NCBI RefSeq assembly: GCF_947497025.1
Contig: NZ_CANMFC010000005.1
Coordinates: 1-64,000 of the forward strand
From: an uncultured Kushneria sp.
Lineage (GTDB): Bacteria; Pseudomonadota; Gammaproteobacteria; Pseudomonadales; Halomonadaceae
Length of the DNA stretch: 64,000 bases
Direction of reading: 5' to 3'
This document shows, one piece after another, positions 18,698 through 20,938 of the stretch; the stretch's first letter is position 1, and each line of letters opens with the position of its first letter. Position numbers and translations under genes: made by a program. The notes beneath the pieces are model-generated. The model was not told the origin of the DNA and made no database searches. It saw nothing but the letters and a program-made list of their open reading frames with translations.

Positions 18698-19045
18698 ATG
18701 TTTCGATATACCCCTTCTTCCCGTCAGGCCCCGCTGGTGGGTGCCATCCATCGCGCCATGGCCGTCATTGAATTCGATCCGAAAGGCATGGTTCTGCGGG
18801 CCAATTCAGCCTTTTTCGAGGCCACCGGCTACCGCGCTGAAGCACTGATTGGTCAGCATCACAGTGTGCTCTGCCCGCAGGGTTATGTGGCAAGCGACGA
18901 GTATGCGACCTTCTGGTCCCGGTTGCGCGAAGGCGAGTTCATCAGCGGTCGCTGCAAGCGCCTGCGTGAAGATGGCGCGCCGCTATGGCTGGAGGCCACC
19001 TACAGTCCGATCCGTAACCGCCGTTCCCCGCAGGCGCGGGGATGA
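18698..19045 (+). pseudogene. Truncated PAS-domain gene (chemoreceptor-type N-terminus)
   Basis: Residues 20-107 form most of a PAS domain (MAVIEFDPKGMVLRAN, QHHSVLCPQGYVASDEYATFWSRL, LWLEATYSPI), closest in pattern to PAS sensors fused to methyl-accepting chemotaxis proteins. The last PAS strands and everything downstream are missing. Coding similarity stops at residue 108, where the first CRISPR repeat begins, and the frame ends nine codons later inside that repeat. The rest of the gene is not found on the other side of the array. Confidence 0.82.
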
Positions 19046-19415
19046 ACCGCAGCCCGAACCCCACTTTTAGATTCTGTCCCACCGTTCCCCGCAGGCGCGG
19101 GGATGAAGCGCGTGCCCAACCACGGCGGCATATATCTCGGCGCCGTTCCCCGCAGGCGCGGGGATGAACCGCAGGCTCCCAATGGTAGGACGCCGGGCAG
19201 GTCCCGTTCCCCGCAGGCGCGGGGATGAACCGTCGTGGCCGTCGAGGTCGTCATGCGCGGGCGCCCGTTCCCCGCAGGCGCGGGGATCAACCGCGACTAT
19301 CAGCAGTTTCTGACCGCGCCGGTTCCCGCTCCCCGCAGGCGCGGGGATCAACCGGTTGATGGCGTGAACTACGCGCCGGAGGTCTACCGTTCCCCGCAGG
19401 CGCGGGGATCAACCG
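19021..19415 (+). CRISPR. CRISPR array block 1: seven type I-E-like repeats, six spacers
   Basis: Seven 29-bp repeats start at 19021, 19082, 19143, 19204, 19265, 19326 and 19387, an exact 61-bp period with 32-bp spacers. Each begins CCGTTCCCCGCAGGCGCGGG (or CCGCTC in the sixth) and ends GATGAACCG (1, 3, 4), GATGAAGCG (2) or GATCAACCG (5-7). The inner palindrome CCCCGC..GCGGGG and sizes match the type I-E class. By homology to the E. coli repeat the leader should lie to the left, but truncated PAS coding sequence lies there instead. No cas gene is in the window. Confidence 0.97.
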
Positions 19416-19592
19416 ATCGCCCGACCCGGTGGCCAGATCCTCGATCCGTTCGCCGGTAGCGGCACTACGCTGGTCGCGGCAGAGCTTGAGGGTTATGGCT
19501 CGACCGGTATCGAGCTGTCTGACCACTATCACAATATCGCCCAGGCACGACTGGATGAGATCCGGCAGCCAGATCTGTCCACGGCGTCATGA
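19416..19592 (+). pseudogene. 3' remnant of a DNA methyltransferase gene, beginning at a spacer boundary
   Basis: An open frame of 58 codons runs from the base after repeat 7 to a TGA at 19590-19592. It encodes ARPGGQILDPFAGSGTTLVA then ELEGYGSTGIELSDHYHNIA, the C-terminal SAM-binding motif (FAGSGTT) and following helix of phage/restriction-type N6-adenine or N4-cytosine methyltransferases. Its first 32 bases (19416-19447) occupy the position of spacer 7. The catalytic DPPY part is missing, so it is non-functional. Confidence 0.85.
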
Positions 19593-19598
19593 ACGACA

Positions 19599-19627
19599 CC
19601 TACCGCTGCGGCGGTGGGCTTTTTTTA
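19599..19627 (+). terminator. Rho-independent terminator after methyltransferase remnant
   Basis: CCTACCGC / GCGGTGGG stem (one G-T pair) with loop TGCG, followed by a run of seven T. It closes the transcript of the foreign methyltransferase fragment before the HigBA promoter. Confidence 0.85.
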
Positions 19628-19636
19628 TTGCTCGTC

Positions 19637-19665
19637 TTGTATCGTGTGTCGCTACACGATACAAT
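19637..19665 (+). promoter_or_regulatory. higBA promoter with overlapping operator palindrome
   Basis: An 11-bp inverted repeat TTGTATCGTGT / ACACGATACAA with a 6-base centre spans 19637-19664. The same bases supply TTGTAT (-35) and TACAAT (-10, 19660-19665) with 17-base spacing. This is the usual arrangement for autoregulation by a HigA-type antitoxin. Confidence 0.78.
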
Positions 19666-19699
19666 AAGCGCATGCCAATAACGCAGTGGGCGACAATGG

Positions 19700-19978
19700 A
19701 TGATTAAGGGGTTTGCACACGATGGTCTGGAAGGTCTTTATCGGACCGGGACGACAAAGGGGGTACAGCAGGATCACGTTAAAAAATTGAGGCGCATACT
19801 GACAACACTGGATGAAGCCTCAAAGCCATCGGACATGGGGTTACCAGGGTATAACCTGCACCCACTTGAACCAAAGAAGGATGGCATCTGGTCAGTGAAG
19901 GTAAACGGTAACTGGCGAGTGACGTTCAGGTTTGAGGGCGATGACGTGGTGCTGGTCGATTACCGCGATTATCACTGA
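19700..19978 (+). CDS. higB: HigB toxin (RelE superfamily mRNA interferase)
   Basis: A 92-residue basic protein with the HigB/RelE fold signature ([47 protein letters not shown]). HigB toxins cleave mRNA on the ribosome. The toxin gene comes first and the antitoxin second, the order typical of higBA. A tiny upstream frame (19672-19707, 11 codons) overlaps the start codon and might couple translation. GC content appears lower than in neighbouring chromosomal genes, and the module lies inside the CRISPR locus. Confidence 0.92.
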
Positions 19979-20081
19979 AAGGCACTCTCCGAGGGGCGGC
20001 GCGAGGCGCTCCTCGAAGAAGGCCGGATATAACGCAGAACATAGAACGCAAAACGACGAACACGAACAGGACACGGCAAAT

Positions 20082-20369
20082 ATGAGCATGTTTAACCCAG
20101 CGCATCCGGGGGAGATCCTGAAAGAGGATGTATTCGCCGCGCTTGGCATGAGCGTGACCGAAGCAGCCAGCAAGCTAAAAGTATCTCGCGTCACCCTGTC
20201 ACGGGTGCTGCATGAGCACGCGAGCATTTCACCGGATATGGCCGTGCGCCTCGAGCGCGCCGGCATTAGCACCGCCCGCTTCTGGATGGCCCTGCAGAGC
20301 AAGTATGATCTTTGGCAGGCAGAGCATCGAGATCAGCCCGCTGTCGAGCGCCTGGTCGCTCCGGCGTGA
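20082..20369 (+). CDS. higA: HigA antitoxin (XRE-type)
   Basis: A 95-residue helix-turn-helix protein starting [20 protein letters not shown], the classic HigA/VapI N-terminus. The HTH lies around residues 25-48 ([20 protein letters not shown]). It neutralises HigB and represses the promoter at 19637-19665. The 103-base gap after higB is long for this family, which usually has tens of bases. The ATG at 20082 fits the family start. It ends before a hairpin at 20378-20410. Confidence 0.92.
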
Positions 20370-20377
20370 TCACCGGG

Positions 20378-20410
20378 CCGAACTCCTATTTTTTTTGATA
20401 GGGGGTTCGG
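20378..20410 (+). terminator. Hairpin after higA
   Basis: CCGAACTCCTAT pairs imperfectly with ATAGGGGGTTCGG around a T-rich loop. It is AT-poor on the 3' side, so it may be a weak terminator backing the next, stronger one. Confidence 0.5.
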
Positions 20411-20445
20411 AAAATCGAATGTCCCTCATTTGAGGGATAGAAAGG

Positions 20446-20485
20446 CAAAAGCCCCTACCGTCTCGCGGCGGCAGGGGCTTTTTTA
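20446..20485 (+). terminator. Strong Rho-independent terminator downstream of higBA
   Basis: AAAAGCCCCT...AGGGGCTTTTTT with an inner CCG/CGG stem and TCTCG loop, followed by T-run. It terminates the higBA transcript before the second CRISPR block. Confidence 0.88.
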
Positions 20486-20514
20486 CGTTTGTACATTTTT
20501 ACGCATGTACATTT
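20483..20514. repeat. Two 16-bp tandem direct repeats
   Basis: TTACGTTTGTACATTT (20483-20498) is followed directly by TTACGCATGTACATTT (20499-20514), 14 of 16 identical, each containing the palindrome TGTACA. They sit just before the resumption of the CRISPR array and may be regulator or iteron-like sites of the inserted element. Confidence 0.6.
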
Positions 20515-20560
20515 GTCAGCGCAGAGGGCCGTCAGGCATCTGTGGAGGTTTTGCCCTGTC

Positions 20561-20650
20561 CCGTTCCCCGCAGGCGCGGGGATCAACCGCGGTTATCGGC
20601 AGCGGTGCCGTGGTACAGCATCCGTTCCCCGCGCCCGCGGGGCCAGGCCG
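20561..20650 (+). CRISPR. CRISPR array block 2: one intact and one degenerate terminal repeat
   Basis: Repeat 8 (20561-20589) ends GATCAACCG, the same variant as repeats 5-7, so it belongs to the same array. A 32-bp spacer (20590-20621) leads to repeat 9 (20622-20650), which starts CCGTTCCCCGC but is altered in its centre and end (GCCAGGCCG), the usual sign of the leader-distal end. The 32 bases before repeat 8 (20529-20560) occupy a spacer position and are contiguous with the foreign DNA. Confidence 0.9.
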
Positions 20651-20677
20651 TGGATACTCGTCAGCGGTCGATCGAAC

Positions 20678-20706
20678 CAAAAAACGCCCGGCCAGAGCCG
20701 GGCGCG
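20678..20706 (-). terminator. Rho-independent terminator of the 20723-20938 gene
   Basis: Read on the minus strand: GCCCGGC / GCCGGGC stem with a four-base loop followed by GTTTTTT. It lies 20 bases beyond the stop codon and also closes the CRISPR locus on the right. Confidence 0.88.
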
Positions 20707-20722
20707 CCTTGTGAAGAGGTCA

Positions 20723-20938
20723 TCACATCTTTTGGTCGGCGTGGATCTCCTCCGGGCCTGGATTGTCGGTTGCCGAACGGTTTAGCGTTTCGCAGTGGCT
20801 TTTGGCCTCTTGCTCGGAGGCGTAAATACCTTCCTGATCGAGGGTGTCTTCATCAAAGACGATAAAGCTTTGCTCGGTCTCGGCCGCCGAAGTGGCATCC
20901 AGTGCGTCCTGCGAGGCAGGTTTACAGGCATAGGTCAT
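20723..20938 (-). CDS. Small acidic hypothetical protein
   Basis: A 71-residue acidic protein starting MTYACKPASQDALDATSAAE. The GGAGGG ribosome site lies 7 bases before the ATG at 20938, so this start is chosen over the longer frame. Its sequence (FIVFDEDTLDQEGIYASEQE) suggests a small soluble domain. No family is recognised. It has its own terminator, so it is probably expressed. Confidence 0.72.
   Translation of the reverse strand: MTYACKPASQDALDATSAAETEQSFIVFDEDTLDQEGIYASEQEAKSHCETLNRSATDNPGPEEIHADQKM

Follow-up and report, generated by a model that had tools for sequence, protein, structure and literature searches.

A methylase-higBA segment lodged in an orphan type I-E-like CRISPR array of an uncultured Kushneria sp.

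The array and the segment within it

A fragment of a DNA methylase gene and a complete higBA pair lie between two parts of a type I-E-like CRISPR array in the genome of an uncultured Kushneria sp. (Table 1). The stretch of DNA that was analyzed, hereafter the window, comprises 64,000 nucleotides (assembly GCF_947497025.1, contig NZ_CANMFC010000005.1, positions 1 to 64,000 of the forward strand), and the repeats of the array span 19021-19415 and 20561-20650 on its plus strand. Nine I-E-type repeats start at positions 19021, 19082, 19143, 19204, 19265, 19326, 19387, 20561 and 20622, the last of which is degenerate. Seven of the gaps between them measure 32 nt, and the gap between repeats 7 and 8 measures 1145 nt (19416-20560). 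I-E-type repeats of 29 nt combined with 32-nt spacers mark the array as type I-E-like, and near-identical repeats adjoin Cas1e and Cas8e in a sister genome, G005, where 84/90 array spacers are 32 nt long and 6/90 are 33 nt long. The two I-E arrays of G005 have the repeat cores CAGGC and CACCC, flank the cas genes on either side and possess different leaders (L013:2681-5123; L014:3872-6926).

Repeats 1-4 end in GATGAA(C/G)CG and repeats 5-8 in GATCAACCG; repeats 2 and 6 carry one additional change each. Because a single variant continues across the insert from repeat 5 to repeat 8, the repeats on both sides look like those of one array, which the 1145-nt segment seems to interrupt. An earlier, first-pass annotation of the window had placed a methylase-HigBA segment inside the CRISPR array, and this placement is confirmed. 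Two separate arrays with the segment as the DNA between them are unlikely on the same grounds, and this arrangement is also disfavored by repeat 9, which resembles the usual degenerate end of an array. Both edges of the insert touch complete repeats. The orientation of its repeats indicates which end of an array held the leader; here, repeat orientation and the degenerate right-hand repeat place the leader end on the left.

The frame that opens at 19416 encodes a C-terminal fragment of the methylase, from which about the first three quarters are missing, and not a whole gene. Behind it, higB precedes higA and each matches its own family, as in a HigBA toxin-antitoxin module; on the strength of these family matches, the two genes are predicted to form a toxin-antitoxin pair. 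No sigma-70-type promoter was found by a consensus scan of 18900-20800, and an inverted repeat precedes higB. Short direct repeats resembling TTTTTACGTTTGTACA, with a step of 8, occur at 20480-20511, between the hairpin after higA and the right edge, and are perhaps a putative binding site of the donor element. G+C content is 55.6% in the insert and 61.4% in the window as a whole.

Within the outer 40 nt of the insert ends, no common direct or inverted match of at least 6 nt was found, in keeping with the initial observation that terminal inverted repeats and a target duplication are lacking. A transposon or insertion sequence was considered and set aside: no matching ends, target duplication or transposase were seen, and the frames are those of the methylase, higB and higA. 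With a phage-type methylase and a toxin-antitoxin pair of phage-moron type (the HigB family, phrog_3066, is filed under morons), the insert looks like foreign mobile DNA.

Table 1. Features of the interrupted array and its left flank (window positions)
Feature	Position	Strand	Basis or remark
PAS sensor gene, 5' part, ~107 codons, ending where the array begins	18698..19020	+	PAS domains; occupies leader position
Repeats 1-7 and spacers 1-6	19021..19415	+	29-nt I-E-type repeat, 32-nt spacers, leaderless
Insert in place of one spacer, 1145 bp	19416..20560	+	Repeat map, end comparison
First 32 nt of insert, candidate spacer 7	19416..19447	+	Possible protospacer in phage methylase gene
N6/N4 DNA methyltransferase, last 58 codons and stop	19416..19592	+	PF01555 180-220/221; phrog_67 E 4.2e-18
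Terminator-like hairpin after methylase fragment	19599..19618	+	Terminator scan
Inverted repeat 5' of higB, putative HigA operator	19629..19672		19-nt arms, 84% complementary; putative function
higB toxin, 92 aa, complete	19700..19978	+	PF05015 E 3.9e-20; phrog_3066, toxin of TA system
higA antitoxin, 95 aa, complete	20082..20369	+	TIGR02607 E 2e-32
Hairpin after higA	20447..20482		Scan: terminator-like on minus strand
Last 32 nt of insert	20529..20560	+	Preceded by GGG; not an AAG-flanked protospacer
Repeat 8, spacer 8, degenerate terminal repeat 9	20561..20650	+	Repeat comparison

Orphan state of the array and targets of its spacers

The array is an orphan, leaderless I-E-like relic. Its repeat pattern is absent elsewhere in the 3.5-Mb genome, a draft of 20 contigs. 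Cas8e had no match in this genome (G000) and was found in one of ten genus genomes, G005; the single Cas1 of the Kushneria genome is of subtype I-F and adjoins Cas2-3f and an I-F array with 32 repeat copies. The search for I-E cas genes in the genome covered Cas8e and Cas1, and with these and the leader region checked, neither a leader nor the I-E cas genes of a working system were found. The 120 bp 5' of repeat 1 have a G+C content of 64% and are PAS code, whereas three leaders in G005 and G006 have 28-35% G+C.

The homologous PAS frame of G005 has 457 codons from stop to stop, and similarity of the PAS gene to four of the compared relatives stops at 19023, that is, with the CCG that it has in common with the repeat start. 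In G005 the same two neighbors enclose an I-E system with Cas1e, Cas8e and two arrays of 41 and 51 repeats; one neighbor is the complete PAS gene, which other genes separate from the system, and the second is the conserved right flank. Two repeats remain at the same site in G003. The simplest reading is that the leader and cas genes would have been lost by a microhomology deletion. A PAS-derived self-targeting spacer was considered as the cause of the left deletion and rejected, the 32 nt before repeat 1 being preceded by TGG (ATG for a 33-nt spacer). Self-targeting of the PAS gene is also not needed, because the CCG microhomology explains the join between PAS gene and repeat equally well.

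Spacer 6 (window 19355-19386) matches a place in its own genome (G000:C4:309014-309047; L016:9015-9048) at 31/32 positions, with AAG before it, in the tail gene (phrog_469) of a prophage-like stretch. It is thus self-targeting, and the loss of the I-E cas genes is presumably why this is tolerated. The same spacer matches G004 at 30/32 positions (AAG), and spacer 4 matches G006 at 30/32 (AAG) and G008, the most diverged place, at 28/32 (AGG). Across these places within the genus, two each of which may be copies of one gene, AAG precedes the match at three of four and AGG at the fourth.

Relatives of the insert and its two edges

In a comparison that concerns a 58-residue fragment, the methylase appears closest to those P2-like phage methylases that adjoin a portal gene. 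A portal gene like that of locus L042 (phrog_68; the terminase there is phrog_5909) lies on the same strand 0.73-0.79 kb upstream of the aligned stretch in 14 of the first 19 viral loci (L042-L060), and the arrangement recurs in 30/105 methylase loci overall, counts in which some loci are one contig fetched twice. No portal gene lies upstream of the methylase of the insert, where repeat 7 occupies the position. In Stenotrophomonas phage Smp131 (Peduoviridae) the order is P, Q, a small ORF, the methylase, three small genes and the end of the record. Over a long stretch, methylase identity was highest, at 76% of 46 residues, in Pseudomonas alcaligenes (L165).

Relatives of the HigBA pair occur in the same bacterial family, Halomonadaceae, and on Pseudomonas plasmids, with best full-length identities among the collected loci of 70% for HigB (L035, L162) and 74% for HigA (L024, L159). 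A related higBA pair is located behind a Lar-type restriction-alleviation gene on the 48-kb Pseudomonas aeruginosa plasmid CP124676.1 (L195:133-1379). This non-mobilizable circular record also has a site-specific integrase and an S24-family peptidase gene, and may be a phage-like element. For the insert, we infer a donor that would have been a P2-like phage carrying higBA as cargo.

Such a donor was not found in 275 family genomes searched by DNA, by methylase protein and by two end patterns, nor in the phages, plasmids, viral contigs or species genomes searched. DNA similarity to part of the insert was seen in 53/275 family genomes, the own genome included, and in this DNA search the methylase part had no listed match outside the own genome. 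Two weak matches to Pseudomonas plasmids are confined to the hairpin part of the insert. None of 198 loci, most of which include only 1.5-6 kb of flank, combines the methylase with HigB; outside the own copies, 127 match the methylase and 40 match HigB. The first-pass annotation had pointed to an element with the methylase, higBA and both 32-base ends in the same order, and no such element occurs among these 198 loci. It had also pointed to sister strains for an uninterrupted version of the array; none was seen, and the sister arrays have other spacers. The scan of viral contigs for the methylase gave at least 600 matches, and no donor was among the 600 stretches listed. The methylase scans rest on exact 8-residue patterns, which miss distant relatives, and two of the donor scans (species genomes and viral contigs) used patterns without the commonest motif. 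Between the own I-F array and the insert there are only matches of 10-11 nt, from 4/31 spacers.

At the left edge, no second copy of the first 32 nt of the insert (19416-19447) was found among the 275 family genomes when up to 3 mismatches were allowed. The edge was compared with 34 distinct related methylases that have the upstream GKP motif. The codon before the edge is AAG in five of them, which places it fifth among 180 positions, against a mean AAG frequency of 0.020; CGG is the commonest codon there (17) and AGG occurs once. A wider set of 94 distinct methylase loci gives a weaker signal (AAG in 8/94, rank 10 of 180). Given this enrichment of AAG, spacer 7 may be a true protospacer, and compatibility of the left edge with a PAM-defined spacer is moderately favored, short of proof. 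If spacer 7 is derived from a methylase gene, a PAM is expected before ATCGCCCGAC in the donor.

The exact position of the left edge is less sharply defined. The first codon of the insert is ATC in 27/34 related methylases, and mean DNA identity to the 34 is 0.92 at nt 1-3 and 0.26 at nt 4-12, where shuffles give 0.28. Over nt 1-12 together it is 0.43, a value that 4.6% of shuffles reach, and blocks of the insert from nt 13 on have identities of 0.66-0.86, so that clear similarity begins at base 13. On the repeat side of the edge, the last 12 bases of the repeat score 0.23 (shuffles, 0.29) and the block from 24 to 13 nt before the edge scores 0.41. These identities put the true left edge somewhere in nt 0-12 after repeat 7: since nt 4-12 do no better than shuffles and a repeat block scores similarly, the edge is possibly as much as 12 nt inside the spacer position. 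Of random breaks within a 61-nt unit, about 13 in 61 would fall in this zone of 0-12 nt. A methyltransferase frame starting within two bases of the repeat end had been described initially; the open frame and the methylase similarity do continue across the spacer position, but nt 4-12 show no significant similarity, which at the DNA level is clear only from nt 13. The accompanying claim that spacer 7 was taken from a mobile element is partly supported insofar as the left edge is compatible with a PAM-defined protospacer, and falls short insofar as a donor with both ends was not found.

At the right edge, the flank of the last 32 nt (20529-20560) is GGG and not the PAM, and becomes AGG if the spacer is taken to be 33 nt long; the bases in front of this stretch are retained in the array, which allows the PAM position to be read directly. 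Outside the window, a search of the 275 family genomes that allowed up to 3 mismatches did not find these 32 nt, and the viral contigs searched contain no exact copy of their 24-nt core. They had been interpreted as a second spacer from the same element, a proposal that neither the flanking GGG nor these searches support. Up to 32 of the right-end bases could instead be the remnant of an old spacer and not DNA of the insert. A random break within a spacer would leave the same picture, and a second, homologous crossover therefore gains no real backing from the right edge, although a 33-nt spacer would leave it some plausibility.

Entry of the segment into the array

We tentatively prefer, above the other explanations, a one-sided recombination between a spacer and its protospacer in a P2-like phage, followed by a non-homologous second junction. 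A live I-E system would have acquired 32 nt of a P2-like phage methylase gene, beside an AAG PAM, as spacer 7. Later, DNA of the same phage or of a near relative would have recombined homologously with spacer 7, with the outcome that repeat 7 of the array was followed by the phage gene and, behind it, the higBA pair. The phage DNA would then have broken and been joined upstream of a later repeat, with no second spacer involved, which would have deleted the remaining phage, perhaps some spacers, and the PAM-bearing copy of the target. Deletion of the leader and cas genes into the PAS gene via the CCG microhomology would have turned the array into a fossil, and these last two steps could have taken place in either order.

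A CRISPR target ordinarily needs its PAM. Since the repeat end CCG stands before the copy retained in the insert, this copy would not be cut. The other copy that a single crossover produces keeps its PAM and would therefore be a target, whose loss would probably have been selected while the system was active. The AAG-ranked left edge, the AAG-flanked places matched by spacers 4 and 6, the P2-like methylase and the orphan state of the array argue for the one-sided event; against it stand the second junction, which has no independent support, the searches, which yielded neither a donor nor a locus joining this methylase to higBA, the predominance of CGG before the edge in related methylases, the weaker AAG signal of the wider set and the shuffle-like identity of nt 4-12. 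If recombination at spacer 7 did occur, a donor methylase with AAG directly before ATCGCCCGACCCGG should exist.

An unlikely but still substantial rival is illegitimate joining, by which a decaying array would have taken in phage or prophage DNA at two breaks placed at random, the left of them near a repeat by chance. Such joining requires no homology at the right edge, and the neighboring junction between PAS gene and repeat, with its common CCG, looks to be of the same kind. The left edge, moreover, is placed only within a zone that about one in five random breaks per 61-nt unit would hit. Against random joining stand the conserved ATC codon exactly at the edge and the enrichment of AAG just before it.

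It is improbable that a double crossover took place, as had been proposed at first, in which spacer 7 and 20529-20560, as two spacers acquired from one element, recombined with their protospacers and replaced the middle of the array. Complete repeats are indeed present at both edges, and a second spacer of 33 nt, a length known from the sister genome, would have AGG before it, as at one of the four places matched by spacers 4 and 6. At the usual length of 32 nt, however, the right edge lacks the PAM, and the right end was matched nowhere besides the window in the places searched; the one-sided event fits these observations better.

We give little credence to a capture by Cas1-Cas2 of a kilobase-long phage fragment, complete toxin-antitoxin module included, as a single giant spacer in casposase-like fashion, with the left end trimmed at the PAM, the right end free and the repeat copied. 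One event would then explain both edges; two full repeats of the same variant bound the insert, its left end lies at a possible PAM site and terminal repeats are absent. Spacer size is nevertheless tight, as the 32- and 33-nt spacers of G005 illustrate, and a literature search with narrow terms found nothing on aberrant long spacers. We know of no report of kilobase spacers.

Prospects are slimmer still for repeat-mediated recombination, in which the right edge would have been made by a solitary repeat-like unit of the phage or by a cos site that has TCCCCGC in common with the repeat. Solitary repeat units in viruses are envisaged as homology for integration in a passage of PMC8616872. The sequence CCCCGCCACGCC stands at the end of the Smp131 record and is for that reason taken as cos; 14/31 loci have it 0.2-3.1 kb behind the methylase, and several of the others end earlier. 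From the methylase stop it is 969 nt to the end of the insert, and the corresponding distance to the end of the Smp131 record is 934 nt. Nonetheless, the 7 nt that cos and repeat have in common are a weak match, one that 7.9% of shuffles attain, and the pre-cos sequence of relatives is not found near the edge, the one match, with 4 mismatches, being at 20219. A crossover between repeats would also leave the cut methylase at the left unexplained. A phage cos end as the right edge was rejected on the first two of these points and kept as a minor rival. Least credible is an assembly artefact that joined two places at the 29-nt repeat, for despite the draft state of the genome (20 contigs), the window contains no N, the repeat pattern is limited to the array, the insert matches its own genome once, as itself, and no common long repeat was seen that could have led to a mis-join.

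Comparison with known systems

The insert is likely a natural case of an already known type of event. Recombination between spacers and their targets is known mainly from laboratory work in staphylococci, and a literature search with narrow terms found nothing on interrupted I-E orphan arrays. If the left junction is a spacer-protospacer crossover, the locus would be a natural type I-E trace of immunity records serving as entry points for the very DNA that they record. It would also illustrate a possible end of an array, with cas genes lost, a self-matching spacer tolerated and addiction genes of a phage housed among the spacers.

CRISPR spacers and their phage targets are reported to recombine, which facilitates the transfer of CRISPR-Cas loci, in a passage of the review PMC8616872 that cites Watson et al. 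2018 and Varble et al. 2019; the same two studies are cited in a section of PMC7396663. As in the staphylococci of Varble et al. 2019, in the account given by that passage of PMC8616872, phage DNA is here joined to an array at a possibly matching spacer. The present locus differs from that account in being type I-E and a static genomic relic, in keeping ~1.1 kb of DNA, in concerning one edge and in having no donor among the sequences searched. Insertion sequences in CRISPR-Cas loci, as described in PMC10359306, resemble it in that foreign DNA interrupts a CRISPR-Cas locus; in the cases described there cas genes are hit, whereas here it is the array, and no transposase, terminal repeats or target duplication were seen.

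With the methylase region of P2-like phages (Peduoviridae) such as Smp131, the insert shares the type of methylase, behind which small accessory genes lie near the end of the phage genome. In the array, by contrast, the methylase lacks about its first three quarters, and higBA behind the methylase was not seen in the loci compared. Finally, the pair resembles the type II HigBA modules of the same bacterial family and of Pseudomonas plasmids, which are likewise toxin-first and both of whose proteins match curated families, and is set apart from them by its placement inside a CRISPR array.
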